Below, in pieces: positions 26,058-44,637 of a stretch of 64,000 nucleotides of DNA; within the stretch, counting starts at the first letter, position 1; each line of letters begins with the position of its first letter. Made by a program: the position numbers and the translations under genes. The notes under the pieces are model-generated. The model did not search any database and was not told the DNA's origin. It worked only from the letters and a program-made list of their open reading frames with translations. Source of the stretch: an uncultured Bacteroidia bacterium (GTDB lineage: Bacteria; Bacteroidota; Bacteroidia; Bacteroidales; F082); NCBI GenBank assembly GCA_913009755.1, contig CAJVWU010000007.1, positions 1-64,000 of the forward strand, written 5' to 3'.

Positions 26058-26651
26058 TCAGAAAACCCATTGGTTATGAAAAGCAAGGGCAACCGTTTCG
26101 TATCCGGATGAAACACGGAATTTTTTGTAGATATTTTTGCGGTGTGTTTTAACCGTTTCATAAGAGATACAAAGTGTATCTGCTATTTTTCTCGATGATT
26201 CCCCTTTAACAAGATGCCGAATAATCTCAAGCTCACGACCTGTCGGCTCAGGGGTGGTGTTGCAGGAACTTAAGCGCATCTGTTTATGTAATGCGCATTT
26301 TGCTGCAACCAACAATTGCCTGTCTGTAAAAGGTTTTGTAATATAGGATGCAGGTGAACTATCCATCACTCTGTTCAGCGTCTCTTCATCATCATGGGCA
26401 GACACATAAATAACAGGAACTTTTTTAATATCCCTTGCCTGTTCGATGAAATTTATTGCTACTTCACCATTGTTGAGATAGATACAACAGACTAAAAGAT
26501 CGGGTAACCGATTAACAAACAACCGGAGAGCCTCAATATAGTTTCCGGCAATACCGATAATTTCAAATTCAGCAGATTCAAGAACAACTTGCATGTGCAT
26601 GGCGTTGACGATATCATCCTCAAGGATCAATACCTTAGTTTCCATTTCCAC
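26058..26651 (-). CDS. LuxR-type response regulator lacking the phosphoacceptor Asp
   Basis: A 197-residue protein with an N-terminal receiver domain and a C-terminal LuxR/FixJ helix-turn-helix (TGRELEIIRHLVKGESSRKIADTLCIS, ETVKTHRKNIYKKF). The acidic pocket is present (ILEDD, residues 9-13) and the conserved Lys is in YITKPF, but the position of the phosphorylated Asp is Cys56 (LLVCCIYLN), where the paralogue at 26868 has Asp57 (LIICDINL). It is therefore probably a phosphorylation-independent or ligand-responsive regulator. It sits next to the lipoprotein array. Confidence 0.88.
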   Translation of the reverse strand: MEMETKVLILEDDIVNAMHMQVVLESAEFEIIGIAGNYIEALRLFVNRLPDLLVCCIYLNNGEVAINFIEQARDIKKVPVIYVSAHDDEETLNRVMDSSPASYITKPFTDRQLLVAAKCALHKQMRLSSCNTTPEPTGRELEIIRHLVKGESSRKIADTLCISYETVKTHRKNIYKKFRVSSGYETVALAFHNQWVF

Positions 26652-26800
26652 AGTAATTAATTTTGATTCAACGATATTAAATCATTGAATTAGTTTTATT
26701 TTACCAATGAAATAACCCAAGTGTTAAATTCATTTTTGGATAATCTTGGTCTGTTTCAATTAATAATATACAAATGTAGGCAGTTAATAAACACCAGTCA

Positions 26801-26818
26801 ATATCCGAATTCGGGTAT
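26801..26818. promoter_or_regulatory. palindrome upstream of the response regulator gene
   Basis: ATATCCGAATTCGGGTAT is an 18-bp near-perfect palindrome with one mismatched pair, about 150 bases upstream of the start at 26651 and about 50 bases beyond the stop of the next regulator. It could be an operator or part of a terminator for the upstream gene; there is no T run. Confidence 0.4.
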
Positions 26819-26867
26819 ATTTAGATGTAATTTCAGATATATTTTATTAATTGGATTTTGAAGGGGG

Positions 26868-27467
26868 CTAATCCATCCAGTTATTTTTTATGGCCAGGGC
26901 AGTAAGTTCCGAACTGGAATGAATATGATTTTTTCCGAGGATCTTTTTCCGGTGGGTTTGAACGGTCTCGAAACATATTCCCAGTTCGGCAGCAATTTCG
27001 TGACTTGTCATCCCCCTTGCAATACATTTAATAATTTCCAGTTCCCTCTTCGTCGGCTTATGGTCTGCAAAGGAACTTTCTTCTTCACGGCTTTCGTTAC
27101 TCAATATCATTTTAACAGCAACAAGCAGTTGTTCATTGGTAAAAGGTTTGGTAATGTATGAACCCGGGTGGGTTGAGATCGCTTTTTCAATGGTTTCCTC
27201 ATCACTGTATGCCGTAAGATAAATGACAGGTATGTCTGAATCCCCCCTGACTTTTTTTATAAAATCAATGCCTGTTAAACCTGACCGCAGGTTGATGTCA
27301 CAAATGATGAGCCCGGGTAGATGTTGTAAGAATTCCTCATTGGCCTTCTCAAAACTCCTGGCGATGCCGACCACGTTAAAACCATTGCTGGCAAGTGTTT
27401 GCTCAATATCTTTTGCAACGATAATTTCATCCTCCACAATTAATATGTCAACATTACTCATTTCCAT
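26868..27467 (-). CDS. LuxR-type response regulator
   Basis: A 199-residue receiver-HTH regulator. The receiver has the acidic pair (IVEDE), phosphoacceptor Asp57 (IICDINLRSG), a Thr/Ser switch (VIYLTAYSDEE) and Lys in YITKPF. The HTH is KPTKRELEIIKCIARGMTSHEIAAELGI, with ETVQTHRKKILGK. The start overlaps the end of the histidine kinase gene by 14 bases, so the two form a kinase-regulator pair. It is close in length and sequence to the paralogue at 26058, which suggests a duplication followed by loss of the Asp in one copy. Confidence 0.9.
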   Translation of the reverse strand: MEMSNVDILIVEDEIIVAKDIEQTLASNGFNVVGIARSFEKANEEFLQHLPGLIICDINLRSGLTGIDFIKKVRGDSDIPVIYLTAYSDEETIEKAISTHPGSYITKPFTNEQLLVAVKMILSNESREEESSFADHKPTKRELEIIKCIARGMTSHEIAAELGICFETVQTHRKKILGKNHIHSSSELTALAIKNNWMD

Positions 27468-28719
27468 TATCTTTTTCTATTGCAAAAGAATCCGTTTCCA
27501 AAATCAGTTCGATGGTTATTCTGTTGGTTTTTTCATCAACATTTATTTTTCCATTATAGTTTGATACCAGCGTTTCCACAAGTTTTAGCCCGAAATTATA
27601 GTTCTTTTTATTCATAATGGTTTTAATCTTTTTTCCGTTATCTTCTACAGTAAGCAACACACCATTTGGCTTGTTTAGCTTTACCCGGACTGAGATTAAT
27701 CCTTTGTTTTTCTTTATACCATATTTCACAGAATTTGTTACAAGTTCATTTAATATTAACCCTACCGAAACAGCATCTTCCAGCGAAAGGATAAATTGAT
27801 CCGTATCTGTTTTAATGGTTAATCCCTGTTCATCCCCGGCGAGGGTATCTTTGATAAAAGGGATCAGGTCATTCAGATAATCTGAAATATTGATTGCCGT
27901 TAAATAATCTTCCCTGTAAAGTTGCCTGTGAATTAAGGCAATGGAATAAATCCGGTTTTTCGCATCGTTGACGGCTTTTTTTGCCTCTTTATTCTTGAGA
28001 TGCCTGGCATTGAGGCTTAAAAGGCTGGAGATCAATTGAAGGTTATTTTTTACACGGTGATTCATTTCGCCAAGCAAAAGGGATGCCCGTTCAGCATGTT
28101 TTCTTGAACTCTCGGCCGTTTCTTTTAGTAATTTATTTTGTGATAAGATCATTTTCCGGTTGCGTTCATATTGCCTCCGGAACAAGCTGATTGAAAAGAT
28201 GCTTAAGGCAAAAGCTGCAGCGCCCTCAATAATTTCAATCAACAGCTTTACGGGCTGTACCGGTTCAATCAAATGAATGTTAAAATAACTTGTTTTTTCA
28301 ATAACAAAAATAAATAAAAGCAACAGAAAATATATTAACAAATACTTCCTTCTTTCAATTACAAACGCGGCAATAATAAAGAGCGGGAAAAGATAATATT
28401 GAGCACTTGCATTGATTATTAACTGTACGATACCCAGATGGATGGCCAGTGAAGTAAAAAATAAAATTCTGGCAGGAATATATTTTTTCCGGTAGTTCAA
28501 CAATAAAACCATCAGCAAACATACAGCCGTGATATAATTGAGAACAAGCAAAGGGAGGAATTTCAAAACAAGTCCCCAAAAACCATTTAAAATAAAAAAA
28601 AATATTAGTACAACTGACAGGCCATTCAATATCCTTACCTTTTGATTGAAGTCAAAATCGGGATTCTCTTCAATCCCTATACTTAACACTTTTTTATAAA
28701 TGTTTCTTACTTTTGACAT
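27454..28719 (-). CDS. six-TM sensor histidine kinase (HisKA_2 type)
   Basis: A 421-residue kinase. Residues 35-200 contain six hydrophobic segments with no large extracytoplasmic loop, so the sensor is embedded in the membrane. The phosphoacceptor region is LLGEMNHRVKNNLQLISSLLSL (His near residue 219), typical of the HisKA_2/HWE class that pairs with LuxR-type receivers. The ATPase domain has ILNELVTNSVKYGI near 316 (N box) and TVEDNGKKI and NFGLKLVETLV later. It precedes the regulator at 26868 in one operon. The signal sensed is unknown. Confidence 0.9.
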   Translation of the reverse strand: MSKVRNIYKKVLSIGIEENPDFDFNQKVRILNGLSVVLIFFFILNGFWGLVLKFLPLLVLNYITAVCLLMVLLLNYRKKYIPARILFFTSLAIHLGIVQLIINASAQYYLFPLFIIAAFVIERRKYLLIYFLLLLFIFVIEKTSYFNIHLIEPVQPVKLLIEIIEGAAAFALSIFSISLFRRQYERNRKMILSQNKLLKETAESSRKHAERASLLLGEMNHRVKNNLQLISSLLSLNARHLKNKEAKKAVNDAKNRIYSIALIHRQLYREDYLTAINISDYLNDLIPFIKDTLAGDEQGLTIKTDTDQFILSLEDAVSVGLILNELVTNSVKYGIKKNKGLISVRVKLNKPNGVLLTVEDNGKKIKTIMNKKNYNFGLKLVETLVSNYNGKINVDEKTNRITIELILETDSFAIEKDNGNE

Positions 28720-31057: not shown

Positions 31058-31717
31058 TTATTTATCATGACAGGTTAAACACAGTGCACTGCCGGTATTG
31101 GATATCCTTAGAGAAAGGTCAGTGGTAACTCTGGTTGCCATATTGTGGCAACCGATACACCCCTGGGTATTTCTGCTGATATGCGGATCGTGGCAGGATG
31201 TACATTGCAGATACCCACTCTGAAGGAGATCTTCTGCAATGGTTCCGCCTAAACCTGAGGGTGTACTGGCCGGATCATGCAACCCGCCGTCAACCGTAGC
31301 GAGTGCTGTATTGTATTCAAACGATATGGGATGGTCATCCCTTAAATCTGTTGTTACATTACCCCAGGTAACATATTGCGTGCCACCTGTATAACTACCA
31401 TGGTTTTCGATGGCAACGGTGCCGTCATGGCACGAAAGACAAAGCTTTGAAAAGCCGGTTGGCTGGCCGGGGTTACTGTTCAGGGTCGGACTTGAATAAA
31501 CCTGATAAGACGCAGTGGTAACTTCATGGTTCCACAACGGGGAATCGGGTACCAGCATATTGGCATTGTGAGGGGTGTGACATGGACTACAGGCTTCTCC
31601 CCCACTCCATGAAGTTCCCGTAAAATCATGGTGGCTATTCAATAAACCCTGACTATATAAAAAAACAGAAAAGAAAATTAGCAGTGAGCTGAAAAAAAAT
31701 CGTTTTAATACCTTCAT
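31058..31717 (-). CDS. exported pentahaem c-type cytochrome
   Basis: A 219-residue protein with signal peptide (FFFSSLLIFFSVFLYSQG). Five CXXCH haem sites: CSPCH, CLSCH, CTSCH, CIGCH and CLTCH at the very end. The layout HDFTGTSW...CSPCHTPHN, SPLWNHE, KLCLSCHDGTVA, DDHPISFEY, LQCTSCHDPH, ALCLTCHDK is shared with the cytochromes at 31838 and 37901 and the first third of the one at 41844. CXXCHTPHN and LSCHDGTVA mark the doubled-CXXCH cytochrome family. It is probably a periplasmic or surface electron carrier. A sigma-54-like site lies 73 bases upstream. Confidence 0.9.
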   Translation of the reverse strand: MKVLKRFFFSSLLIFFSVFLYSQGLLNSHHDFTGTSWSGGEACSPCHTPHNANMLVPDSPLWNHEVTTASYQVYSSPTLNSNPGQPTGFSKLCLSCHDGTVAIENHGSYTGGTQYVTWGNVTTDLRDDHPISFEYNTALATVDGGLHDPASTPSGLGGTIAEDLLQSGYLQCTSCHDPHISRNTQGCIGCHNMATRVTTDLSLRISNTGSALCLTCHDK

Positions 31718-31837: not shown

Positions 31838-32491
31838 TTATATATTATGACAGGTTAAACACAGCGCACTGCCTTCATTTGATTTCCTTAGCGAAAAAAA
31901 AGTACGCCCCGCATGTCCTTTACTATCATTAAGATTATCCCTTTCAAAACTGTCCTGACGTGAGATATTATGAACGTCATGACATGATGTACATTCCATT
32001 CTGCCGTCTTCCAGTAAATCTTCTTCAATCGTACCCCCCAACCCCGATAAGGTAGTGCTTGGGTCATTTAACCCATGATCTGTCATGGCCAGGTTCGCAT
32101 CATATACAAATGAGATCGGATGACTGTTTCTCAGAGAAATATGAAGACTGCTTTTTCCAGGGGGACCGACCATGTGGTTAGCATTGGCCACTGTCTCATC
32201 GTGGCATGCAAGACACTGCTTTGATTTGCCGGAAGGGAGACTTGGATAGCTATTTAGCGTGGTGCTGGAATAGACCTGATAAATTGAAACCGTATCGCGT
32301 TTGCTCCAAATAGGTGAAGAAGGTATCTTGGTACTGCCTGACCGGGTTATATGGCAAGGTGTACATGGACTGTTGCCACCCCAGGAACTCCTCTTGAAAT
32401 CATGATGGCTGAGTGGTGATTCCTGTCCCATAACAATTGATAAATGGTTGATCAAAAAAACAACAGTGATATATGCCAGGAATTTAGACAT
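31838..32491 (-). CDS. exported tetrahaem c-type cytochrome
   Basis: A 217-residue protein with signal peptide (AYITVVFLINHLSIVMGQ). Four CXXCH sites: CTPCH, CLACH, CTSCH and CLTCH at the C-terminal end. It is a paralogue of the cytochrome at 31058 (HDFKRSSWGG, QCLACHDETVA, SHPISFVYDANLA, SCHDVHN, LCLTCHN) but lacks the fifth haem. It is 120 bases from that gene on the same strand. The two have diverged clearly and are not a recent duplication. Confidence 0.88.
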   Translation of the reverse strand: MSKFLAYITVVFLINHLSIVMGQESPLSHHDFKRSSWGGNSPCTPCHITRSGSTKIPSSPIWSKRDTVSIYQVYSSTTLNSYPSLPSGKSKQCLACHDETVANANHMVGPPGKSSLHISLRNSHPISFVYDANLAMTDHGLNDPSTTLSGLGGTIEEDLLEDGRMECTSCHDVHNISRQDSFERDNLNDSKGHAGRTFFSLRKSNEGSALCLTCHNI

Positions 32492-32850: not shown

Positions 32851-34149
32851 TTAATTTCTTTTGTACTCTCTTCTGGCATGACAACCGGTCAAACACGAGC
32901 CCCCGTTTTGGGTAACCTGATATTTTATCGGCATTTTCCAACTTCCAAATGTTACACTACCGGCTATCAGGTGTTCATATTGTGATCCGTGCATGGCATG
33001 GCAATCCTTGCAACTTCTACCTTTATTGCCGTGAATATGGACATAATGCAGGTTTTGATCACCATTCCTGAAATTGGTAGCGGATTTTGTCACTTTTGTT
33101 TCGAGCAAACCTGTGTCGTGACAGGTAAAACATAAGGCGAAACTGTCGGGTTGTGCAGGGGTATAAACACCGGTCGGAAAAGCCTCCTGCAACAGGAAAG
33201 GGATAACAGAGGCATGCGGGGTATGGCAACCGGAACAACCGGCAAGCTCAATGGCACCATGAACGACTTTACTCTTATTCAATATCTGCCTGATATTGCG
33301 TATTGTTTTCGTTTCCGTTTTTATCGTTTTGTTATGGCAGCTCAGGCATAACGCTTTATTCTCTTTCACAAGGAAATATTCCTGTGATGATGCATGAGGG
33401 GAATGGCAATTCAAACAGGCTTTTTTAATTTTAACCGCCCCGTGTACAACAGGCAGGCTGTCAACAGATTCTTTCACATCATCATGACAGTCGAAGCAAA
33501 GGGCAGGAACTGTTTGATCTAGCAAATGCTTTTCTTTTGAACTATGAACCTGATGGCAATTCCTGCAATCATCCTCAAAAGGCGGGTGAAGATGCGAATC
33601 AGTCATTTCCTTACTGATTCTTTCATGGCATTTGAAACACAAACCAGGCAATCCGGTATTGAGAAATGAACGGTAATTGGATTTATGAGGGTTATGGCAA
33701 TCCTGGCAATTCCCCGCACTCACCGGTTGATGAACGATATTATTTTCTGCTATTTCCTGATCATGACATTCAAAGCACAGGACGGCCACCGGATTGGCTA
33801 ACAACAAGAAAGGGTTTGGGCTACTGTGGGGGGAATGACACGTCAGGCATTCGCCATCTTCAACAGGCGGATGGGTATATTTGCCCTGGAATTCATCATG
33901 GCACATATAGCATAATCCCGGTACTTTATCAGCCAGGGTAAACCCTTTCAGGTTTTCATCGGGGTGTTTATTGCCCGTAGGTTCATGACAATCATCACAT
34001 GCTTCGTCCGCCGGCGGATGGATGACCTGGTTTGCCATTAAATCTTTATGGCAGTCAAGGCATGTTTGTTCTCCGGCGACATTTTGTCCCAGAATACCCT
34101 GACCGGGCAACAAACCCCACAATAGTATTGTAAACAAGTATTTCCACAT
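32851..34149 (-). CDS. 15-haem c-type cytochrome
   Basis: A 432-residue exported protein with signal peptide (MWKYLFTILLWGLLPGQGILGQ). I count fourteen CXXCH sites and a fifteenth CXXXCH (CLTGCH) ending 8 residues before the stop. The sites alternate between single and tightly paired forms (CLDCH, CDDCH, CYMCH, CLTCH, CFECH, CQDCH, CFKCH, CRNCH, CFDCH, CLNCH, CLSCH, CSGCH, CFTCH, CKDCH), typical of doubled-CXXCH cytochromes. HPPxxE and KxCxxCHxPH repeats recur. It starts three bases after the barrel gene, so it is very likely its electron-carrying partner. Confidence 0.92.
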   Translation of the reverse strand: MWKYLFTILLWGLLPGQGILGQNVAGEQTCLDCHKDLMANQVIHPPADEACDDCHEPTGNKHPDENLKGFTLADKVPGLCYMCHDEFQGKYTHPPVEDGECLTCHSPHSSPNPFLLLANPVAVLCFECHDQEIAENNIVHQPVSAGNCQDCHNPHKSNYRSFLNTGLPGLCFKCHERISKEMTDSHLHPPFEDDCRNCHQVHSSKEKHLLDQTVPALCFDCHDDVKESVDSLPVVHGAVKIKKACLNCHSPHASSQEYFLVKENKALCLSCHNKTIKTETKTIRNIRQILNKSKVVHGAIELAGCSGCHTPHASVIPFLLQEAFPTGVYTPAQPDSFALCFTCHDTGLLETKVTKSATNFRNGDQNLHYVHIHGNKGRSCKDCHAMHGSQYEHLIAGSVTFGSWKMPIKYQVTQNGGSCLTGCHARREYKRN

Positions 34150-34152
34150 ATA

Positions 34153-36120
34153 TTAAAAAGATTTAAATTTCCTTACTATGCTAACATAAGCACCATTGAA
34201 GTTGATGGTCTCCCTGTTTAAATAATTGCGCCGGTAAACTTCGGCACCAACTGTAATATAAATTTTCCTCACAATTATGGTTAGTTCCGTCCTTGCAGTA
34301 AGATAATCAAGGTCAATCTGATATCCATTCTGTTGCCTGTAGGCAACCTCTACATTGAGTTTGATTCGCGGAGTAAAACTGTATGCCATCCTCCCCGAAA
34401 TATCCGCATACAACTCATCAACCCTGAAACCGATGGTAATGTAATACCTGATATTTCCCATTGCCGAGAATAAAAATTTATTTTTATAGCGCCACTGAAG
34501 ATTGATAAAAGAACGGATAAGCCGGTATGGAATAATGCTGCTTTTGTAATCATCATATTCAACACCAAACCTTGCAAGCCCGATATCGAACTTAACGCCA
34601 TAAACATTTTGCAAAAAGAAATTCAGCGCAACCGGCTCGGATTGTTCAACGTTGTTGTAATTCTGTTTGGCCCTCCGGTAATAAAGCTCGATAAACCGTT
34701 TGAAAAGCAGGACACTAACTGTGAATGCCTGATTGTTCAGCGTAAATTTGTAAGACCCCGGCAATAAAGTTGTATAATCAACCAATACAGTAGCGCTATT
34801 TGGTATCATGCCTCCGGGTATCCGCTTGATTTCTATATAATTGTTTTGTTCAGATAACAAATAGTCGAGGTTCTTCACATAGATAATGGTACCGGTAATA
34901 TCCTTCACGACAACAGTTCCGATTTCAACAAAGGGTTTATCAAGCAACGTAATCTTTTCGTCAGACAAAACATGCTCTTCGTCCTCCACTTTCAACGGAA
35001 CAGGTTCGCTGTTTCTTTTAAAATCGCGGTAAATAAATGAATAAGATATGTTCAAACGGCCTTTGGGAATTTTTTTGGTGTAATTAATACTGAAGCCAAC
35101 CCTGTTGTCATATTCCTGATAAATCGTATGTTTATTGCTGTTATACTCGACAAATATATTTGTTGTCAGGCTTTTAAACAATTGATGGCTCAAATCCAAC
35201 TTTGCCCTGTACTGATCGAGCCGGTAAAAAAGATATTGACTATCGAAAAAATTGTAGTTCACCAACAACCTGAAATTATGGGGCAATTTCATATTCAGGT
35301 TGGTAAAGACCTGAAACCTGTTTAAATTGTTCCACCCTTTTTGATTAAAGTTCGAGACAATGGCATTCAGGTTGTAATCTTTCGCCTGGTCAAGGGGAAT
35401 ATTGCTGTTCAGTTCAATATAATTAACCTTGTTTCGCCGGGGAATGGTGTCAAAAGATTCTTTGCGGATATAGTCATCATACGAATAGCTCAGAAAATTT
35501 TTATCAGCCGAGAAGAATGATCTTGAAACCCTGGCTTTGATATTGCGTTGCCAGTAGGAATAGGTCCTCCCGGTTTCAATTTCATTTTGATCCCAGGTTC
35601 CTTCCTGATAGGTAATGGAAGAAGGAAGCACTTTGTTTTTGTAAAATAGCCCGCCACCGAAAAACTTTCGGTTTGTTCGTGAATTGGTAAAATTTTCACG
35701 GTTTATAAAATTTTGATTGAGGTTAACAAACGCATTGAATGTGAGCTTCTTTTCCTGAAAAAATGTGGTCCTGAAGTTTAACCTTTTTAAAGTCCTGACT
35801 TCAGAGCGATCGGGAATGGTCAGGAATTGTTCATTCATTTTTTCAGGATTGTATTCAATCTCAAGATCAAGATCAATCATACCGGGGCGTATCATAGAGC
35901 TTTTTGAGTTTAAAAGCAATCCGCCGGATATCAGGGTACCATGGATATTTTCTTTGAAACCGGAACCCAGGATTTGTTGCTGATTTCTGTAATGCCCTTT
36001 TATACCAATAGCCCCTGACAAGGATTGCTGGTGCCAGAACTGATTCACGCTCGAACCGTTTTGTCCAAAACATTCAATTGAAATGACAAATAGCAGGTAT
36101 ATTAATCTTCTTTTTTTCAA
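34153..36120 (-). CDS. outer-membrane beta-barrel, candidate porin of a cytochrome conduit
   Basis: A 655-residue protein with signal peptide (KRRLIYLLFVISIECFGQ), many alternating amphipathic strands rich in aromatics (NFRLLVNYNFFD, YRAKLDLSHQLF, YDNRVGFSINYTK), and a C-terminal aromatic end (VRKFKSF). Residues about 385-455 (KDITGTIIYVKNLDYLL, PGGMIPNSATVLVDYTTL) form a separate soluble domain inserted into the barrel, which could be a plug or docking site. It lies between a 5-haem lipoprotein and a 15-haem cytochrome with gaps of 15 and 3 bases. I see no CXXC motif of the MtrB type, so it is not a clear MtrB homologue. Electron-conduit role inferred from context. Confidence 0.7.
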   Translation of the reverse strand: MKKRRLIYLLFVISIECFGQNGSSVNQFWHQQSLSGAIGIKGHYRNQQQILGSGFKENIHGTLISGGLLLNSKSSMIRPGMIDLDLEIEYNPEKMNEQFLTIPDRSEVRTLKRLNFRTTFFQEKKLTFNAFVNLNQNFINRENFTNSRTNRKFFGGGLFYKNKVLPSSITYQEGTWDQNEIETGRTYSYWQRNIKARVSRSFFSADKNFLSYSYDDYIRKESFDTIPRRNKVNYIELNSNIPLDQAKDYNLNAIVSNFNQKGWNNLNRFQVFTNLNMKLPHNFRLLVNYNFFDSQYLFYRLDQYRAKLDLSHQLFKSLTTNIFVEYNSNKHTIYQEYDNRVGFSINYTKKIPKGRLNISYSFIYRDFKRNSEPVPLKVEDEEHVLSDEKITLLDKPFVEIGTVVVKDITGTIIYVKNLDYLLSEQNNYIEIKRIPGGMIPNSATVLVDYTTLLPGSYKFTLNNQAFTVSVLLFKRFIELYYRRAKQNYNNVEQSEPVALNFFLQNVYGVKFDIGLARFGVEYDDYKSSIIPYRLIRSFINLQWRYKNKFLFSAMGNIRYYITIGFRVDELYADISGRMAYSFTPRIKLNVEVAYRQQNGYQIDLDYLTARTELTIIVRKIYITVGAEVYRRNYLNRETINFNGAYVSIVRKFKSF

Positions 36121-36135
36121 AAAACATTGATCTTG

Positions 36136-36699
36136 TTAGTTAAATATAAACCTGTCGTCTCCGCCATGCGGGTTGTGGCATTCCGTACAATTTGTTTCTT
36201 CAATGTCTGAATGGGCCTCATTTTTAAACACATCTTCCGGGTTATGGCAATACAGGCACAATTGCTGTCCGGTGCGAATGAGCAGATGTTTATTTTTACT
36301 CATGTGCGGACTATGACATTGCGTACAAAAACCTCCGCCCACCGGCCCGTGCAATACCTTGTACTGATCGGCAAAATCTTCGTGGCATTGATAACACAGG
36401 CCGGGCATGGGTTCAGTTAAGTGCCCTATTGAATTTTGATCATGGCACATTGCACAATCCTTTTCCAAATAGGGGGGATGAAATACAATTTGGGGTTTGG
36501 CCGGCCCAATGTTTTGAATAGCTGACCTTTCAGCCTGTTTTGTTGAATCAGCCAGAGCAATGCTGTCGATCGCCTCAGGGTTTGGCACCCCGTCAAAAAA
36601 AACGGATAGCGTTTTATAGCTTGTTTTCGGGGAGCATGCAATAATCAATGTAACGGCGGCAATAAGAATCAAACCTTTTGTATATAAATCCCGGTACAT
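36136..36699 (-). CDS. pentahaem c-type cytochrome lipoprotein
   Basis: A 187-residue lipoprotein: signal YTKGLILIAAVTLIIAC, lipid Cys22. Five CXXCH sites: CAMCH, CYQCH, CTQCH, CLYCH and CTECH, packed into the second half (about residues 80-180), with a haem-free N-terminal linker of some 55 residues. The lipid anchor would hold it at a membrane, plausibly the periplasmic side of the barrel. It follows the NHL lipoprotein gene by 15 bases and precedes the barrel gene by 15. Confidence 0.9.
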   Translation of the reverse strand: MYRDLYTKGLILIAAVTLIIACSPKTSYKTLSVFFDGVPNPEAIDSIALADSTKQAERSAIQNIGPAKPQIVFHPPYLEKDCAMCHDQNSIGHLTEPMPGLCYQCHEDFADQYKVLHGPVGGGFCTQCHSPHMSKNKHLLIRTGQQLCLYCHNPEDVFKNEAHSDIEETNCTECHNPHGGDDRFIFN

Positions 36700-36714: not shown

Positions 36715-37785
36715 TTATTTCGGTTCTACATAACCATATACGTTGATTTTATCGGGGCCATACTGGTTTGTAACAAATATCAGATATTTCAGTTTGAAGC
36801 TCTCATCAACATATTCCTCAAAATACTTTAAGTTGTCATAATCAATGATGACCTTGGCAGGAAGCCACATGTCGCCGGGTTTCTTATAGGATCCCCCGAA
36901 AAACATAAGCAACTCACCATTTTTATTGAAAATCTGGACATTTTCAAATCCCGCATCAACAACATACAGGTTCAGGTCCCTGTCAACTGCAATTCCCTTT
37001 GGCCGTACAAATTGCCCGATTCGTTTGCCATAACTGCCCACCGACATAATGAACTCACCTTTATGAGTATATACTTTTATCCTGAAATCCCCGAAGTCGC
37101 TAACATAAACCCTGTCATCAGTAACACAAAGATTGGTTGGTGAATATAAATAATCCTCATTTCCCGGTTCGGATTCAGGAAAGCTGTACAGCAATTTAAC
37201 GCTGTCTTTGTTGTAAACATCAACCCTGTGGTTTGAAAAATCGGCAACCCAGATTTTATCATCCTTTACAAATACATCAGTTGGTTTAGCATCACCGGCC
37301 TCCCCAAAGCTGTTTACGTACCTGAGGGTGGAGTCAAAAATTACGATTTGACGCCGGCCCACATCTGCCACATACAAGTATCCGTCACGGTCCACATAAC
37401 AATTGACCGGTTTCTTTAACTGTCCCCAGCCTTCCGGAGTAAAATATTCAAAGTTATGTTTTTCAAGATCAATGACCTCAAGCGCATCCAGCTGGGTGTC
37501 GCATATATAAATTTTACCGTGATGGATCGCTATGCCATAAGGCTTTAATATACCAAGATCTTTATATTCCCCAAGGAGAAACCGGCCAAATGCCGACCGT
37601 TTTCCGGTAATATCGAGCGAACTGCTGATTTTGGTCAGATATTGTATCCGTGCCGTATCAGGGGGTGCCGGATAAATAACGATATTGTCGGATGACAGGT
37701 TTTTGTGCAACTGCCGTGAACATGAAAGGGAAAGCAAAGCGAAAAAACCGGTTGCCAGGATGATAGTTAAGTGTTTTCTGATCAT
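36715..37785 (-). CDS. NHL-repeat beta-propeller lipoprotein
   Basis: A 356-residue lipoprotein (LLSLSC, lipid Cys22). From about residue 75 there are six NHL-type blades with [PV]xxxxV/I-D-x-x-x-[NF]-x-[YIV]-[VY]-x-D repeats: VDRDGYLYVADVGRRQIVIF, VKDDKIWVADFSNHRVDVY, VTDDRVYVSDFGDFRIKVY, AVDRDLNLYVVDAGFENVQIF. NHL propellers are binding scaffolds. It is the first gene of the conduit operon and may bind a carbohydrate or partner protein at the surface. Promoter region carries a weak TATCTTTA at about 37811 but no sigma-54 site. Confidence 0.85.
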   Translation of the reverse strand: MIRKHLTIILATGFFALLSLSCSRQLHKNLSSDNIVIYPAPPDTARIQYLTKISSSLDITGKRSAFGRFLLGEYKDLGILKPYGIAIHHGKIYICDTQLDALEVIDLEKHNFEYFTPEGWGQLKKPVNCYVDRDGYLYVADVGRRQIVIFDSTLRYVNSFGEAGDAKPTDVFVKDDKIWVADFSNHRVDVYNKDSVKLLYSFPESEPGNEDYLYSPTNLCVTDDRVYVSDFGDFRIKVYTHKGEFIMSVGSYGKRIGQFVRPKGIAVDRDLNLYVVDAGFENVQIFNKNGELLMFFGGSYKKPGDMWLPAKVIIDYDNLKYFEEYVDESFKLKYLIFVTNQYGPDKINVYGYVEPK

Positions 37786-37900: not shown

Positions 37901-38512
37901 TTATTTATCGTGGCAGGTTAAACACAATGCACTGGCATCGTTACTCATAACAAGGAAATTACCATTAGCGTTATTGTGTGGATCATGGCATGAAGCACAT
38001 TGCAGTTTGCCATCAAATAACATGTCGGCGTCGATTGATCCGCCTAAACCGGAATCGGTGGTAGAAGGATCAAACAATCCGCCATCGTCACTTGCCAATG
38101 TAGCATCATACGTGAATGATATCGGGTGGTCATTCGATAAATCGGTACCAAGATTAGCCTCACCGGTAATATAATCGTTTCCGTCTGTCGTCCCGCCAAA
38201 ATTATCAACGGCCACCGTCCCGTCATGACAGCTCAGGCATAATTTTGAATTACCATCAGGCTGTCCCATTGTCGCATCAAGGGTAAAGGATGTGTACAGA
38301 GTATAGGTTTGGGTTGAAAGCTCGTGGTTCCATAATGGGCTTGCACCATCGATAGCGTTGTGGGGTGTGTGGCATACTACACAAATTTCACCGGTAGCAT
38401 TCCATGTGTCTCCTGAGAAGTCATGTGCCGAACTGGTAATTCCCTGTCCCATACCAACCTGGACAATAAAGAATAAAAATAATCCTGTAAAAAGTTTAAT
38501 AAGTGTTTTCAT
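37901..38512 (-). CDS. exported tetrahaem c-type cytochrome
   Basis: A 203-residue protein with signal peptide (LIKLFTGLFLFFIVQVGMGQ). Four CXXCH sites: CVVCH, CLSCH, CASCH and CLTCH at the terminal end. It is a paralogue of the cytochromes at 31058 and 31838 (HDFSGDTW, CVVCHTPHN, KLCLSCHDGTVAVDN, NDHPISFTYDATLASDDGG, LQCASCHDPH, ALCLTCHDK). A candidate sigma-54 site lies 74 bases upstream, the same distance as in the 31058 gene. It has its own terminator and is probably a single-gene transcript. Confidence 0.9.
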   Translation of the reverse strand: MKTLIKLFTGLFLFFIVQVGMGQGITSSAHDFSGDTWNATGEICVVCHTPHNAIDGASPLWNHELSTQTYTLYTSFTLDATMGQPDGNSKLCLSCHDGTVAVDNFGGTTDGNDYITGEANLGTDLSNDHPISFTYDATLASDDGGLFDPSTTDSGLGGSIDADMLFDGKLQCASCHDPHNNANGNFLVMSNDASALCLTCHDK

Positions 38513-38583: not shown

Positions 38584-38600
38584 GACAAAATGTGTGCCCT
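38584..38600 (-). promoter_or_regulatory. candidate sigma-54 promoter of the tetrahaem cytochrome
   Basis: AGGGCACACATTTTGTC on the minus strand has GGCAC and TTG, with correct ten-base spacing between GG (38598-38597) and G-T (38586-38585); the -12 GC reads GT. The start codon is 74 bases away. Weak by itself but consistent with the neighbouring activator gene. Confidence 0.35.
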
Positions 38601-38921: not shown

Positions 38922-38958
38922 GGGTGATATGGCCCACCCCCGTTGGGTGATATCACCC
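38922..38958. repeat. stem-loop downstream of the sigma-54 activator gene
   Basis: Arms GGGTGATATGGCCCA (38922-38936) and TGGGTGATATCACCC (38944-38958) pair with two mismatches across a seven-base loop. The right arm contains a perfect palindrome GGGTGATATCACCC. It may end the transcript or bind a regulator. Confidence 0.55.
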
Positions 38959-38967
38959 GATTGTAAA

Positions 38968-40341
38968 TTACAGATTATGCTTTTTCTTTTTATATCTTAG
39001 TGTATCCCTTGATATACCCAACATTTTAGAAGCCTTTGTCTGGTTATAGCCGGTTTTTTGAAGCGCCTGCAAAATGGCCTGCTTTTCCAGGTCTTCAAGT
39101 GAAATTCCTTCATCAGGGAGTTCAAAATTATAAGATACATTTGAGTTTGAAATGGATGCGGATGTATTGCTGATCTCGCACGGCAGGCTTTCAACCTGAA
39201 TTATATTATCTTTTTCAAGAATTATGGCACGTTCCATTACATTCCTCAATTCCCTGATGTTCCCGGGCCATTGATATTGCAACATTAATTCGGCGGTATT
39301 ACGATCAACGCCTGAAATGTTTTTGTGGAACTGACTGTTGAACTGGGCAATAAAATAACTGATCAGCAGAGGAATATCCTCTTTATGTTCCCTGAGCGGG
39401 GGAATATCAATCTGGAAAACTTTCAGGCGGTAATAGAGGTCTTCCCTGAAAGTTTTTTGCTCAATAGATTTTTTTAAATCCTGGTTTGTGGCTGCAACAA
39501 TTCGAATATCAACAGGGATATCTACGGTGCCGCCCACCCGCTTAATGGTTCTGTTTTCGAGCACGCTCAACAGTTTCACCTGTGTTGCAAGATTTACTTC
39601 ACCTATTTCATCAAGAAAGACCGTTCCACCCTCGGCTATTTCAAAAAGACCTTTTTTCAGTTTCAAGGCATCGGTAAAGGCTCCTTTTTCATGTCCGAAA
39701 ATTTCACTTTCCAGCAATGTATCGGGAAAAGTTGAACAATTAATGGTTATAAACGGGTTTTTTTTCCGTCCGCTTTCGTTATGAATGGCACGGGCAAACA
39801 AATCTTTTCCGGTTCCGCTCTCGCCCAGCAAAAGAATCATCGAAGTTTCCGAACGGGCAATTTTTTTTGAAACCTGGATAATTTGTTTAAATACGGGTGA
39901 CTGTCCGACAATATCATCAAAAGTGATTTTTTCACGTTGCTGCCGCCTTAATAACTGGATTTCATTGGTTATGTTGATGTTGTTTTTAATGTTCTCAATG
40001 AGCAGGTTGATTTCATCGAAGAAAAAGGGTTTGTTAATGTATTCATTCGCGCCATTCTTCATGGCTTTCACTGCCGTATCAATAGAGCCATAGGCGGTCA
40101 TAAAAACAATGACGGCATCTTCGTCAATGGTTTTGATCCGGGATATTACTTCAAGCCCCTGTATGCCGGGCAGCCGGTTGTCAACAAAAACAATATCGGG
40201 ATAATGCTTTTCAAACAGCCGGACCCCTTCTTCACCTGTTTCTGCCAGGAATACTTTAAAACCTTTCGAATCCAGATGTCTCTCAAATGACCAGCGGATC
40301 AGTTTTTCATCATCAATAACCAGAATCTTTAATAATTTCAT
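38968..40341 (-). CDS. sigma-54-dependent response regulator (NtrC family)
   Basis: A 457-residue regulator with receiver, AAA+ and Fis-type HTH domains. Receiver: DDEKLIRWS, phosphoacceptor Asp54 (FVDNRLPG), Lys in YINKPF. AAA+: Walker A GESGTGKD (173-180), GAFTDA at 220-225 in the sigma-54 contact loop (the common form is GAFTGA; this D variant is also known), Walker B VFLDE (241-245), and the YRL-VF and WPGNIRELRN motifs. HTH: about 419-451 (NQTKASKMLGISRDTLRYK). It is the partner of the upstream haem-containing kinase, with 36 bases between. It probably activates sigma-54 promoters. Confidence 0.95.
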   Translation of the reverse strand: MKLLKILVIDDEKLIRWSFERHLDSKGFKVFLAETGEEGVRLFEKHYPDIVFVDNRLPGIQGLEVISRIKTIDEDAVIVFMTAYGSIDTAVKAMKNGANEYINKPFFFDEINLLIENIKNNINITNEIQLLRRQQREKITFDDIVGQSPVFKQIIQVSKKIARSETSMILLLGESGTGKDLFARAIHNESGRKKNPFITINCSTFPDTLLESEIFGHEKGAFTDALKLKKGLFEIAEGGTVFLDEIGEVNLATQVKLLSVLENRTIKRVGGTVDIPVDIRIVAATNQDLKKSIEQKTFREDLYYRLKVFQIDIPPLREHKEDIPLLISYFIAQFNSQFHKNISGVDRNTAELMLQYQWPGNIRELRNVMERAIILEKDNIIQVESLPCEISNTSASISNSNVSYNFELPDEGISLEDLEKQAILQALQKTGYNQTKASKMLGISRDTLRYKKKKHNL

Positions 40342-40377: not shown

Positions 40378-41829
40378 TCATCCAGCCGGTAAAATAATGA
40401 AAAATCTTGAGCCTTTTGATTCCTCACTTTCAACCCATATTTTTCCATTGTGTTTTTCAACAATTTCCCTCACTATTGCCAGCCCCAAACCGGTACCTTC
40501 CGTGCGGGTGGTAAAAAAAGGGCTAAAAACATTTTTCAAAACATTTTCAGGCATTCCCATTCCTGTGTCCTCAACTGTAATTAAGACCGTCTTATTTTCG
40601 GGATCAAATGCAGTTTTAAAGGTAATGGTGCCTGCTTTGGGTATGGCCTGAATTGCATTTAGCCCAAGATTGAGCAATACGTTTTCAATCTTCTCGTGGT
40701 CGAACCGAAAGCGGGGGATGTTATCCTGTAATTCCTGTCCGAATTCAATTTTTTTATGATGGGTTTGATTTTTTATAAAAAACACAAGATTTTTCATTAC
40801 CTCATTGATATCACTTTTTTCCAACGTGATATGAGTTGGGCGCGAAAACCGTAACATATTGGAAATGGCGTTATTCACGCGCTCTGCCTGTCGGCGGATT
40901 TCCTCCAGAATAGGTTTGTTCTTATCTTCAGACCCTTGATTTACCAGGATTTCAGTGGCATTGGCTATACCGGTAATGGGGTTCCTGATTTCATGCGCCA
41001 GGCGGGCTGTCATTTCACCGATGGTGGCCATTTTGTACCTGGTTTCCAACTTTTGCTGATGATACTGTAAGAGTTCCTGCTGGGTTTTCTGGAATGTATC
41101 TACCATTTCATTAAAACTTTTCCCAAGTTCCCCGAGTTCCCTGGAGCCGGGGATGGAAATACGCTCGTCAAGGTCGCCATGGTTAATTAAATCAATGGAC
41201 TTGTGAAATTTGTGCAACGACTTTTTAACAAACCGGTAATGAACTAAAAATACGGAAATCAAAATGATAAATACAATCAGTGCCGCATATAAAATACCAA
41301 AATCCCTTGTTAATGCAATGTTGTTTCGTGTTTTAACCATTGGAATATCAAATACCAGCATACCTAAATATTTTTCGGAAGGATCGTGGCACTTGTAACA
41401 ATTCGGTGAATTCACCAGACGAATATAGGCCCGCAAATTGGGATCGGGCTGTGAGGCAGAAGACTCTATTGTGATATCCTGCTTAAAATCCGTTATTTTT
41501 TTAGATCCTAATATACTTGTTTTAAGGGAATCATAATCAGACCGGTAAACAAGGCTGTCTTTTGAATTAAATAAATAAATATGGCGAAGGCGGCTATTCT
41601 TTTTAAGGTCTTCCAGTAGAGGGTGTACGGCATTTCCACCGTATTGGGAAACAGAATGGATGAAATTAGCCTGTATCATACTTAAACCGGAGAGGACATC
41701 CTCTTCAGCATGTTTGTACATCTCTTTGGCCAGGAAGTTATCGTAGAGGTAAATTGCAAAAAAAGACAGGGTGCCAACTGCAAGAAAAACCGTAATGGTG
41801 ACAATCAGTTTAAATGAATAAAGTTTCAT
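40378..41829 (-). CDS. sensor histidine kinase with c-type haem motif in the sensor domain
   Basis: A 483-residue kinase. TM1 about residues 8-27, extracytoplasmic sensor 30-175, TM2 about 177-197, HAMP 197-250, HisKA with H-box RLAHEIRNP (His279), ATPase with NLGLNAIQAIP (385-397) and DTGMGMP (421-427). The sensor region has RLVNSPNCYKCHDPSEKYLGMLVF: a CXXCH haem-attachment motif (Cys144, Cys147, His148). The spacing to GMLV is as in the haem-binding sensor kinases and chemoreceptors known in Geobacter. It is thus likely a redox or small-ligand sensor that acts on the sigma-54 regulator. ATG at 41827-41829 is preferred over an open frame to 41892. Confidence 0.9.
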   Translation of the reverse strand: MKLYSFKLIVTITVFLAVGTLSFFAIYLYDNFLAKEMYKHAEEDVLSGLSMIQANFIHSVSQYGGNAVHPLLEDLKKNSRLRHIYLFNSKDSLVYRSDYDSLKTSILGSKKITDFKQDITIESSASQPDPNLRAYIRLVNSPNCYKCHDPSEKYLGMLVFDIPMVKTRNNIALTRDFGILYAALIVFIILISVFLVHYRFVKKSLHKFHKSIDLINHGDLDERISIPGSRELGELGKSFNEMVDTFQKTQQELLQYHQQKLETRYKMATIGEMTARLAHEIRNPITGIANATEILVNQGSEDKNKPILEEIRRQAERVNNAISNMLRFSRPTHITLEKSDINEVMKNLVFFIKNQTHHKKIEFGQELQDNIPRFRFDHEKIENVLLNLGLNAIQAIPKAGTITFKTAFDPENKTVLITVEDTGMGMPENVLKNVFSPFFTTRTEGTGLGLAIVREIVEKHNGKIWVESEESKGSRFFIILPAG

Positions 41830-41843
41830 AATCCTGTTTATGA

Positions 41844-43529
41844 TTAATATGATTTTCTCCTGTGATTTCTTCCATGGCACCTCAGAGTACACCTGCCTGA
41901 AAAGGAACCCAAATCCTGAAAATATAATTGGCCCATGCCCGTGGGATGAACAATATTTATATCAAAATTTATCAAATGGGTATTGTTGGTAGAGTTCCCC
42001 TGTGTATTACTTATACCATGCGGGTCGTGACAGGCGTTGCAGGGAGCGTCTTCACCTACGATATGTTTTTTGTGAACTCTCTCCTGAAAGTTGTTGCCGC
42101 CACCGATGATCACATTCCGGTCATGACACTGATAGCAAAGCTCATAAGCCTGGTATGATTCGGGGGTATAATCGGCCGTTGTATAATTGAACTTCAGGAT
42201 ATGCGGATAAACGGAACCATGTGGTCCGGCCGGAGAACTTGCACCGTCACTTGCATGACAGTCCGTACAATAAATCATACTACTTTCGGTAAGAGGCGAA
42301 ATCAGGCTGGGACAATCGGGGTTCGTTCCCGGACCGGCAACAGGGTGGAATGAGGGATTGCCAATGTCAAACTCGAGCCGGACATTGTTCTGCTCAATCT
42401 GTCGCGATGTAGGGCTTGCCGGTTTATCCGGACTATCGGCATGACACCTGAAACAAATTTCATATTCGTACTGTACCGGGTCAACATCGCTGCCATTGAG
42501 GTTAATTCCTATTGTTCCTACATTTGCGCCCCGGACATTGGGCGCACTGGCACTCAGGTTACGTGCCGCATGAGGATTGTGGCAGTCTTCACATTCAACA
42601 TGTTTTGTTAAAACCAGGGCACTTTCTGCGGCATCGTGAATGAGATTGTAGTTGTAAACATTATGGCTGTATGGTTTATTTAATTGAACCTGAATGTTTT
42701 TTGAAGCCACGTTCCCATTATGGCAATCAAGGCAGTTGTTCTCTTCAACCGGGAAATTTAACAAGCGCTGATCAAGTCCTGCATTATGAGGGTTGTGGCA
42801 ATTCTCACAGGCATTTTCCGAAACAGATGTATAGGGTGTATGAAACCAGGGATTATTACCCGAACCATTCCAGGTGGCAATGGAATTCCGATGACTGGAA
42901 GATATCCAGTAGTTCTTTTCATGACACTGAGTACACAATTCGGAATATTTGCTGGTTACCACCAGAAAATCGGTATAGGTGTTTTTATGCGGGTCGTGGC
43001 AAGTTGTACATTGTAGTTTATCGTTCTCCAGCATTACAGGCCAGACTAAGTTGACAGGATCTACCAGCTCGCCATCCGCTGCTGCCAGCGAAGAATTATA
43101 AACAAAAGATACCGGGTGGTCATTGGCCAGATCGGTGGTCAGGTTTGTATTCCCCGGTGGCATAGTCGTAATCCCCATGCTAAAGTCAATATCTGCCTGC
43201 CGGCTCAAAACATTACCAAGTGCAATGGTACCGTCATGACACGAAAGGCAAAGAATGGAAGCGCCGTCAGGCTGGCCAATGGTTGCCTGAGTCGTGGTAC
43301 TGTTATACAGCGTATAGTTTAACCCCGGATCGTTTCGGTTCCACAAGGGGCTTAATGGCTTACTGTTATGAGGAGTATGGCAAAAAATGCATATCTCTGT
43401 TTCGGTGGTGGCCTTTATCTGTCCCGGACCACTTACTGATAAATTATGAACCGTATTGACTATTGATTGTGAAAATAGCCAGACGGGCATGATAAGCAGT
43501 ATGATTAATTTAATATTTTTTAAAATCAT
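41844..43529 (-). CDS. 12-haem c-type cytochrome
   Basis: A 561-residue exported protein (signal NIKLIILLIMPVWLFSQ). Eleven CXXCH sites and a twelfth CXXXCH (CTLRCH) that ends nine residues before the stop: CIFCH, CLSCH, CTTCH, CTQCH, CENCH, CLDCH, CEDCH, CFRCH, CTDCH, CYQCH, CNACH, CTLRCH. Residues 40-190 match the short cytochromes of the cluster (CHTPHNS, CLSCHDGTIA, DHPVSFVYNSSLAA); the rest is unique, with NPH and DPHG motifs. It overlaps the NHL gene by four bases and precedes the kinase by 14, so they form one operon. Confidence 0.93.
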   Translation of the reverse strand: MILKNIKLIILLIMPVWLFSQSIVNTVHNLSVSGPGQIKATTETEICIFCHTPHNSKPLSPLWNRNDPGLNYTLYNSTTTQATIGQPDGASILCLSCHDGTIALGNVLSRQADIDFSMGITTMPPGNTNLTTDLANDHPVSFVYNSSLAAADGELVDPVNLVWPVMLENDKLQCTTCHDPHKNTYTDFLVVTSKYSELCTQCHEKNYWISSSHRNSIATWNGSGNNPWFHTPYTSVSENACENCHNPHNAGLDQRLLNFPVEENNCLDCHNGNVASKNIQVQLNKPYSHNVYNYNLIHDAAESALVLTKHVECEDCHNPHAARNLSASAPNVRGANVGTIGINLNGSDVDPVQYEYEICFRCHADSPDKPASPTSRQIEQNNVRLEFDIGNPSFHPVAGPGTNPDCPSLISPLTESSMIYCTDCHASDGASSPAGPHGSVYPHILKFNYTTADYTPESYQAYELCYQCHDRNVIIGGGNNFQERVHKKHIVGEDAPCNACHDPHGISNTQGNSTNNTHLINFDINIVHPTGMGQLYFQDLGSFSGRCTLRCHGRNHRRKSY

Positions 43530-44569
43530 TGATTTCCGTTAATAAGTTGAAACACCTGAATTCGTGAATTATAGCTATCTGCTATATAGATATAATCATT
43601 ATCATCAATAAAAATTCCGGTTGGCATCCAGAACTGTCCGTTTTTTCTTCCCTGCCGGCCAAAATAATATAAAAATTTTCCGTTTTTATCAAAAATCTGA
43701 ACGGCATGGAACAAGGCATCAACAACGTAAATGTTGCCAAATGAATCTGTTGCTATGCCTTTTGGACGGGAGAGATAACCTGTTGCATCACCTATCTGAC
43801 CAAAAACCAAGATCACTTTGCCCTCACCGTTCAGAATCTGTATCCTGAAATTCATCGAATCAACAATATAAACTATCCCCGACTTATCAATCCAGATAAA
43901 TGTCGGGAAATTGAATTCTCCCGGGCCTTCGCCTCTTTTACCTATTCGTCGTATCAATTCCCCCTGCGGGTTAAAAACAGATATCCGGTGAGAAGCCGTT
44001 TCCACTACCCATAATTCATCATTTAAACGGGAGTAAGCAATACCGGTTGGCTGATTTAATTCAACCGAAGGATTGAATTCTGTCAATTCATCTTTATCAA
44101 GACTCAGTTTGAATATTTTGTCAGCCCTGGAATCTGTAAAAAACAACTCATTGTGTGATGAAGCACAAATACCGACCAGTGAAGAAAACTTTTCTTTAAA
44201 CGGGTGGGGTATTTCGCCCACTCCATCCTGAACTTTGATCATGTTTCCCAGGCCCTGGTCCAAAACCCAGTAAGATTCGGGATTCTCTGCAAAAACCGAA
44301 ATAGGCTTGCTAAGGATAACGGCTTGCTTTTTGCCAAAAAAAAACTCACCGACCCGATCGAATATGCTTTTTTCCTCCACTCTTTTCTCAGGGGGAAACT
44401 TGCTGACCATCCGTATCCGGTTGATTTCAGCGCCTTGAGAACCTGATAACATTAAGGTATCCTGTGCCCAACAAGGGGTGAAAAAAAGCAGACACAATAT
44501 ACACAAAACCACTGTTCTTTTGTGGAAATCACCAGTTAATAAAATGGCCATGTCGTATATTAATTTCAT
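43526..44569 (-). CDS. NHL-repeat beta-propeller protein, exported
   Basis: A 347-residue protein with signal peptide (TVVLCILCLLFFTPCWAQ) after a short N-terminal leader; start could also be ATG 44551. At least five NHL blades: GICASSHNELFFTDSRADKIF, GIAYSRLNDELWVVETASHRISVF, IDKSGIVYIVDSMNFRIQIL, IATDSFGNIYVVDALFHAVQIF, IFIDDNDYIYIADSYNSRIQVF. It is a distant paralogue of the lipoprotein at 36715 but has no lipobox. It is the first gene of the operon that continues with the 12-haem cytochrome, kinase and regulator, so it is probably a periplasmic partner of that cytochrome. Confidence 0.85.
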   Translation of the reverse strand: MKLIYDMAILLTGDFHKRTVVLCILCLLFFTPCWAQDTLMLSGSQGAEINRIRMVSKFPPEKRVEEKSIFDRVGEFFFGKKQAVILSKPISVFAENPESYWVLDQGLGNMIKVQDGVGEIPHPFKEKFSSLVGICASSHNELFFTDSRADKIFKLSLDKDELTEFNPSVELNQPTGIAYSRLNDELWVVETASHRISVFNPQGELIRRIGKRGEGPGEFNFPTFIWIDKSGIVYIVDSMNFRIQILNGEGKVILVFGQIGDATGYLSRPKGIATDSFGNIYVVDALFHAVQIFDKNGKFLYYFGRQGRKNGQFWMPTGIFIDDNDYIYIADSYNSRIQVFQLINGNQ

Positions 44570-44620: not shown

Positions 44621-44637
44621 TTCAAATTTACTGCCAA
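44621..44637 (-). promoter_or_regulatory. possible sigma-54 promoter of the propeller/12-haem operon
   Basis: TTGGCAGTAAATTTGAA has TTGGCA and TTG with correct spacing but lacks the C of GC. Distance to the start at 44569 is about 53 bases. Autoregulation of the operon would follow if real. Confidence 0.3.

Follow-up and report, generated by a model that had tools for sequence, protein, structure and literature searches.

The kind of sensor treated here has already been described, as the sCache_heme/DUF3365/Tll0287 family (PMC12889525, a 2026 preprint), which includes GSU0582 and GSU0935 of Geobacter (PMC8396549). The domains of these two proteins lose an axial methionine on oxidation, have midpoint potentials of -156 and -251 mV and can take NO or CO as a ligand, and redox is the favoured signal for these two Geobacter MCP domains in the available text (PMC8396549). 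The same source lists eight G. sulfurreducens two-component proteins with a haem c motif, and three haem c sensors of Anaeromyxobacter (Adeh) are described as PAS-like and homologous to GSU0935 and GSU0582 (PMC3831638). EsnA of Geobacter was considered as a close analogue and rejected, as it is described as having no periplasmic domain (PMC5585712).

On the side of the electron conduit, the Uet (undecaheme electron transfer) complex is described as an undecahaem cytochrome, a pair of NHL proteins, a porin and a tetrahaem cytochrome (PMC10734462). The named Uet proteins are those of Tenderia, and PPIase and trihaem subunits also belong to the complex. Here a locus is analysed in which a kinase with a CXXCH motif in its sensor is encoded inside a cluster of this general kind, on a 64,000-nucleotide stretch of DNA from an uncultured Bacteroidia bacterium (the window). 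We think it probable that the kinase and its partner regulator act as a two-component switch that senses through haem and is dedicated to an extracellular (trans-envelope) electron conduit.

The sensor kinase and its fold

The kinase gene occupies 40378..41829 on the minus strand. The initial annotation had given these coordinates without a strand; read on the plus strand the interval is full of stops, and the minus-strand reading frame is the real one. From the ATG at 41829 it encodes a sensor histidine kinase of 483 residues, made up of a first transmembrane segment (TM1), a periplasmic sensor, a second transmembrane segment (TM2) and the Pfam domains HAMP (residues 199-245), HisKA (271-332) and HATPase_c (377-482). 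An alternative GTG start, extending the gene to 41892, would overlap the upstream cytochrome gene. Hydrophobic windows of 19 residues start at residues 1-12 and 170-185, and between them, in the periplasmic sensor (residues 30-175; 41305..41742, minus strand), lies CYKCH (residues 144-148; 41386..41400, minus strand), a predicted haem c attachment motif.

Cys144 and Cys147 are the only cysteines in the whole kinase, and a CXXCH arose by chance in 0.04% of 20,000 shuffles of residues 25-178. The motif is invariant in all 15 rows of one sensor alignment, A2 (the window protein and 14 others, 26-58% identical to it), and in all 11 rows of another, A5 (the window protein and ten others). The placing of Cys144-Tyr-Lys-Cys147-His148 between TM1 and TM2 was borne out. 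Only 13 columns of A2 are invariant and these include N140, C144, C147, H148, G156 and D161. No periplasmic methionine, histidine or cysteine outside the motif is invariant among the 15 sensors, so that no conserved sixth haem ligand is visible. HAMP and kinase domains were found in all 14 aligned kinases.

Assignment of the sensor to a family needed more than single-sequence comparison. The window kinase matched the Pfam family Mcp40H-20_sensor (PF21563) with E 0.023 and 15.5 bits, below the curated cut-off of 27 bits, and gave no match to PF11845 (Tll0287-like) at E ≤ 1. PF21563 was matched at E ≤ 1 by eight of the 14 aligned kinases, the window protein included (best E 0.0014), and dCache_1 by three of the 14. 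When a profile of the sensor was compared with 177,635 PDB sequences, the top of the ten hits was 3b42 (GSU0935; E 0.012), aligned over residues 61-166 with CXXCH on CXXCH; 3b47 (GSU0582; E 0.75) and 5b82 (Tll0287; E 2.6) were found amid unrelated entries. A phmmer search of the PDB with the single sensor sequence matched only a designed protein (E 0.78), which indicates that the family signal needs a profile.

A model of the sensor alone, predicted by AlphaFold2 from ten sequences, has a Cache fold (pLDDT 79.4, pTM 0.75). In a Foldseek search of 350,542 PDB chains with this model, 3b42 supplied the two best-ranked chains (E 1.9e-5 and 8.1e-5), and 3b47 came 11th. TM-scores against the GSU0935 and GSU0582 entries were low, 0.37-0.48 (0.42-0.48 for 3b42); the crystals of both are reported to be swapped dimers (PMC3460858). 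VIA-align placed the WalK sensor domain first (Z 12.7, rmsd 3.2, 130 residues aligned) and gave Z 7.6 for Tll0287 (rmsd 3.7, 116 aligned). The full-length model was rejected as a query for structure searches, its matches being filled by kinase cores. In that model the motif lies in a short helix (142-147) flanked by two strands (131-139 and 154-163); the sensor-only model has just three helical residues there.

The likeness to the Geobacter haem sensors that had been proposed from the sequence therefore holds, with GSU0935 the best match by profile and by Foldseek, and the comparison of predicted folds suggested at the time has now been run against both GSU0582 and GSU0935. We conclude that the sensor is a divergent single-Cache haem c sensor, its haem attachment being predicted from motif, fold and conservation.

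The cytochrome cluster and its distribution

The genes around the kinase all lie on the minus strand. The upstream group begins with an NHL-repeat protein, NHL1 (43526..44569), followed by a multihaem cytochrome with a UetJ-like haem number (41844..43529). After the kinase comes an NtrC-type response regulator (38968..40341) and then, beyond a gap of 455 bp, a tetrahaem cytochrome with four CXXCH motifs (37901..38512), a second NHL-repeat protein, NHL2 (36715..37785), a small multihaem cytochrome with five CXXCH motifs (36136..36699), which by the look of its N-terminus may be a lipoprotein, a protein of 655 residues (34153..36120) and a cytochrome with 14 CXXCH motifs and one CX3CH (32851..34149). 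The 655-residue protein has no match in Pfam or among PDB sequences; its position suggests an outer-membrane beta-barrel. The kinase had been described as lying between a 12-haem cytochrome and a sigma-54 activator. Both neighbours are there, but the haem count needs qualification, as the cytochrome has 11 CXXCH motifs and one CX3CH.

Several of the cytochromes are related to PDB entry 7tfs, which we take to be OmcE of Geobacter sulfurreducens. Residues 10-203 of the tetrahaem cytochrome at 37901..38512 align with residues 10-232 of 7tfs (E 3.3e-29), and 9yuq was also matched. A profile of the upstream cytochrome (A3) matches 7tfs and 9yuq too, over positions 9-207 and 14-207. Further along, a five-CXXCH cytochrome (31058..31717; E 5.4e-15) and, more distantly, a tetrahaem cytochrome (31838..32491; E 1.9e-5) are also relatives of 7tfs.

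The response regulator has a receiver domain (E 1.1e-26), a sigma-54 interaction AAA+ domain (Sigma54_activat, E 1.9e-67) and a Fis-type helix-turn-helix (HTH; E 3.5e-15), and RpoN is encoded in the same genome. In place of the textbook GAFTGA it has GAFTDA, as does every listed regulator from loci with this kinase. Where the C-terminus is present, the regulators of these clusters also have one helix in common, ISRDTLRYK, which varies slightly. Of the regulators beside other haem kinases (loci L050-L055 and L221-L234), 16 of 17 differ, having helices of the VDRVTLYNK or DRRxxHRL type. L223, a locus of the same phylum with another haem kinase, has a regulator with a like helix and GAFTDA, yet it lacks the pair of dyads described below.

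The gene order NHL1, cytochrome, kinase, regulator, gap, tetrahaem cytochrome, NHL2, small cytochrome, 655-residue protein, 14-15-haem cytochrome was found in all 14 orthologue loci (L036-L049), as far as the contigs extend. Searches with the kinase gave matches in 9 of 173 genomes of the family, four of them strong, and in 19 of 393 genomes of the order, 12 of them strong (E 2e-26 or better); the window's own genome is included in both counts. Across the phylum, weaker relatives of the sensor, which served as context only, were found in 26 of 395 genomes besides its own (E 9.6e-4 to 2.6e-21), and none was found in viral contigs. At 13 of the 16 loci of weaker relatives examined (L221-L236) a gene with at least four CXXCH motifs lies within 5 kb of the kinase, a count that has no background rate beside it.

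The sensor alignment offered no stretch of sufficient conservation for a scan of contigs, and the alignment of the upstream cytochrome was used instead. It gave at least 561 loci, of which the best 80, a set biased to close relatives of that cytochrome, lie in records titled Bacteroidetes, Calditrichota, Ignavibacteriaceae, Nitrospirae, Planctomycetota, Gammaproteobacteria and others. Ten of the 80 encode a kinase whose sensor is homologous (L081, L084, L090, L093-L096, L098, L152 and L154). The kinase of L098 is split over two frames and was kept in the counts. Another kinase is present in 11 of the remaining 70, three of which (L114, L148 and L151) have an N-terminal CXXCH. The proteobacterial loci L101, L112, L115 and L126 have homologues of the 11-haem and 4-haem cytochromes.

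Within the order, 24 genomes out of 386 gave a match to the profile of the 655-residue protein, and in 20 the match was at length. These 20 include 11 of the 12 genomes with a strong kinase match; the remaining one, G558, is absent from the list of 386 and may lie outside this search. The other nine of the 20 have the 655-residue protein without this kinase, which shows that the conduit does not need the kinase.

Candidate operator and promoter elements

The gap between the regulator and tetrahaem cytochrome genes holds two dyads with the consensus GGGTNATNTNACCC. Dyad 1, GGGTGATATCACCC (38945..38958), is a perfect palindrome 9 bp past the stop codon of the regulator gene and a candidate binding site for the regulator; dyad 2, GGGCCATATCACCC on the minus strand (38922..38935), lies 23 bp away, start to start. 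Two or more sites, the pair 19-24 bp apart, were found in 11 of 12 intergenic regions (the window and 11 orthologues), the exception being L044 with a single site, whereas in dinucleotide shuffles a mean of 0.25 and a maximum of 3 of the 12 regions had two or more. As the consensus came from these same regions, this count is a description only. Single dyads (up to one mismatch) are common in the window's own genome, where 94 matches were counted over both strands and 49 with the pattern reversed, and were not used.

Wider searches were made with the pair. In a matrix scan the tandem GGGTNATNTNACCC pair was present in 8 of the 10 kinase-bearing loci and in none of the 70 others (Fisher 1.6e-9, uncorrected for kinship), and none was found in reversed sequences. 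All eight pairs sit directly behind the regulator gene. One of the ten loci, L098, duplicates L046, which supplied motif sites; without it the pair is present in 7 of 9 kinase loci (Fisher 1.2e-8, again uncorrected for kinship). Fourteen of the 70 controls have under 3.5 kb of sequence past the cytochrome, so that a kinase could lie off the contig; the remaining 56 reach at least 3.5 kb, and none of these has the pair (Fisher 7.8e-9 against the kinase loci, kinship uncorrected). The two kinase-bearing loci without a scored pair are L093 and L152. By eye, both have degenerate copies of the dyad at the same place, which were left uncounted.

The pair was also absent from all nine loci of the same taxonomic order that have the 655-residue protein but no kinase of this family, one of which, L195, starts 328 bp before its cytochrome gene, and from the loci of weaker sensor relatives (L221-L236). 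In the window's own genome of 4.05 Mb the strict pair occurs once, and not at all with the pattern reversed. Across the order it was found in 11 of 386 genomes, at the conduit locus in seven and elsewhere in four (G426, G335, G325 and G539); that is, in 7 of 11 kinase genomes against 4 of 375 without the kinase (Fisher 4.4e-10, kinship uncorrected). In G426 the pair is found some 250 bp ahead of an operon whose genes look by eye like ferredoxin and NrfD-like ones. It was rejected as a target of the regulator, being part of a longer inverted repeat with no sigma-54-like element.

About 350 bp downstream of the dyads, and 87 bp before the start codon of the tetrahaem cytochrome, which is the first gene after it, lies a sigma-54-like -24/-12 element, GGGCACACATTTTGT (38585..38599, minus strand). 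Using weights set from the sigma-54 consensus, such an element (p ≤ 0.05 against base shuffles) was found in 19 of 21 upstream regions in kinase-bearing loci, a set in which L152 is represented twice and L046 and its duplicate L098 both count, against 14 of 63 elsewhere. The two failures in this automatic test, L047 and L154, have an element near the gene start that was probably missed through the choice of start; they remain scored as failures. Plain consensus matches in the window are at the level of chance (59, with 58.4 expected), so that GGGCACACATTTTGT is credible only through its conservation at one place. A second element, TGGCAGTAAATTTGA (44622..44636, minus strand), lies ahead of NHL1 and is tentative; an element upstream of NHL1 reached p ≤ 0.05 in 8 of 19 kinase-bearing loci, at varying positions.

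The proposed circuit, its signal and known systems

The initial annotation had suggested, from adjacency, that the kinase controls the production of nearby cytochromes. Synteny, the kinase-linked tandem dyad and the sigma-54-like element all support this. In the switch that we propose, a c-type haem would be attached to the CXXCH of the periplasmic Cache domain and, by analogy with GSU0582 and GSU0935, its redox or ligand state would alter the signal passing through Cache and HAMP and hence the kinase activity. The kinase would phosphorylate the NtrC-type regulator encoded next to it, as the pairing of the two genes suggests, and the regulator, to judge from co-occurrence, would bind the paired GGGTNATNTNACCC dyads some 350 bp upstream and drive a sigma-54 promoter at the conserved element. 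This putative promoter would transcribe the genes for the OmcE-like tetrahaem cytochrome, the NHL protein, the small multihaem cytochrome, the putative porin and the 14-15-haem cytochrome. The cell would in this way adjust its extracellular electron route to what the periplasmic haem senses.

As the Geobacter domains change with redox and also bind NO and CO, both redox and NO could be the signal. We lean towards the redox state of the periplasmic electron pool, since the target is an electron conduit and since the weaker relatives of the sensor tend to adjoin multihaem cytochrome genes.

The strongest competitor, although a less likely one, is a sensor whose labile haem binds periplasmic NO, so that the circuit would answer NO or nitrosative stress rather than redox; the remaining probability falls to some other ligand. 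A HAMP-linked sCache_heme protein is reported to bind NO tightly and to form no stable O2 complex, and NO sensing is assigned to the members fused to signalling domains (PMC12889525). A labile sixth site is also plausible in the window sensor, because no methionine, cysteine or histidine beyond the motif is invariant among the 15 sensors. The target, however, is an electron conduit and not a nitrogen-oxide pathway, and a search of the window's own genome for the NrfA family gave two partial hits, one at 24.3 bits against a cut-off of 24.1 (positions 244-375 of 438) and one below the cut-off. Moreover, GSU0582 and GSU0935 shift their haem coordination with redox and bind NO as well as CO (PMC8396549), so NO binding alone does not reveal the signal.

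Two further readings, both improbable, bear on the operator and on the haem. The dyads could be an RNA feature, either a terminator or a processing hairpin past the end of the regulator gene, instead of protein sites: the pair can be folded as one stem (-23.3 kcal/mol, z -2.5) and the off-locus match in G426 belongs to a longer inverted repeat. Against this, no U run follows the stem in the window and no terminator-like call was made there, and it is the sequence of the dyads, not pairing alone, that is kept across families. Among 18 loci, pairing between the two sites was hardly higher within loci (11.5 of 14 positions) than between loci (10.7 of 14), and their relative orientation is not fixed. 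The pair is also absent from all 70 loci in which no kinase of this family was found.

The second of these readings is that the haem has only a structural role, or that the domain is an electron carrier, the true ligand being something else in the Cache pocket. The top rows of the VIA-align comparison are indeed sensors of other kinds, WalK first, and redox-related roles are given to stand-alone relatives (PMC12889525), but the CXXCH residues are among just 13 invariant columns of the sensor and HAMP and kinase domains accompany it in every aligned kinase. That the motif is of a metal-binding or disulphide type without haem is very improbable: CXXCH by itself is no proof of haem, but the sensor is predicted to be periplasmic, its fold and motif position match those of solved haem c sensors, several multihaem cytochromes are encoded in the window and a cytochrome c assembly protein is encoded in the genome.

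A more ambitious form of the haem-sensing switch, which we put forward tentatively, is a closed feedback. The periplasmic covalent-haem kinase may monitor the redox charge of the very pool of cytochromes supplying a nanowire-type conduit, and may set the amount of conduit by way of a sigma-54 switch that has a single target and a tandem operator to itself, an arrangement kept across families of Bacteroidales and reaching Calditrichota.

The conserved sensor-to-conduit circuit looks to be undescribed, although the sensor type is known; in the available text of the open-access literature, no paper was found that links a haem c sensor to a conduit or an operator. For an OmcE-like/Uet-like conduit, the sensor and regulator can now be named together with candidates for the operator and the promoter, and with these parts named the question of how cells sense the need for an electron conduit becomes a defined experiment. 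Redox and NO sensing by haem c Cache kinases should also be separable on one natural target.

As in the sCache_heme family (PMC12889525, PMC8396549), the window sensor is predicted to be a periplasmic single Cache fold, joined by HAMP to its signalling output, in which a short helix ahead of the last strand carries CXXCH. It differs from that family in falling below every Pfam sensor cut-off. It signals through a HisKA kinase that has an NtrC partner, GSU0582 and GSU0935 being MCPs, and its gene lies inside a conduit cluster. The haem c sensors of Geobacter and Anaeromyxobacter, compared by description only, resemble the window protein in that they serve signal transduction and carry either one haem c motif or two; the available descriptions give no DNA targets or conduit neighbourhood for them.

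The cluster itself combines features of two described systems. Its tetrahaem gene encodes a full-length homologue, known here from sequence, of the OmcE-type filament cytochrome 7tfs, and more relatives of this cytochrome are encoded within the cluster (the upstream cytochrome and those at 31838..32491 and 31058..31717). Likened by description, it shares with the Uet complex an 11-12-haem cytochrome, two NHL proteins and a tetrahaem cytochrome. It differs in that no PPIase was found among the cluster proteins scanned and the barrel is a putative one, and in having a regulator, of which the available description of Uet makes no mention (PMC10734462).

Lastly, the regulator is like NtrC/AtoC-type sigma-54 activators in its receiver, AAA+ and Fis-type HTH domains and in the position of its candidate sites, which precede a -24/-12-like element by about 350 bp. 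It differs from these activators in having GAFTDA in place of GAFTGA and in having one strict tandem site only in its own genome.

Other genes in the window

A second two-component group is encoded at window 26058-28719, where two response regulators of the LuxR type accompany a HisKA_2 kinase. The 655-amino-acid protein of the conduit cluster (window 34153-36120) is conserved (37-65% identity), and sequence searches of Pfam and the PDB returned no match for it. Possibly it represents a new putative barrel family.

Variation among conduit clusters of other genomes

Two copies of the conduit cluster were found on a single Calditrichota contig, JAJRSO010000020.1 (loci L091 and L093): in one the kinase-regulator pair lies between the cytochromes and in the other the pair is absent. 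An additional single dyad was observed between NHL1 and the upstream cytochrome at L041:3694 and L046:12050; both loci belong to one family (f63), and in them a gap separates these two genes.

In genome G296 (L196:7171-14109) the genes for NHL2, the 655-amino-acid protein and the upstream cytochrome are each interrupted by a 3-base gap, corresponding to one in-frame stop per gene, which could reflect either decay or recoding. In genome G234 the kinase (L046 / L098:11681-13155) lies in two frames, a sensor part and a kinase part, and the regulator, dyads and conduit genes are retained.

Putative haem sensors in other kinases

Weakly related haem sensors occur elsewhere in the phylum (loci L221-L236), with multihaem cytochrome genes within 5 kb of the kinase in 13 of the 16 loci; some of these neighbourhoods include T9SS sorting tails and NrfH-like or Hmc-like parts.

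A second kinase family, weakly similar to the main kinase, was found in genomes of the order and family (L013-L017 and L029-L035; for example L013:949-2625). At the six second-family loci that were fetched at length (L050-L055), each kinase has its own NtrC partner carrying GAFTGA, and the dyad pair is absent from all six. The sensor of most second-family members shown contains a CX4CH motif (e.g. CYTSSCHAH) in addition to a CXXCH, and that of L033 has a single CXXCH. Sensors carrying two motifs have already been described in Geobacter and Anaeromyxobacter (PMC3831638).
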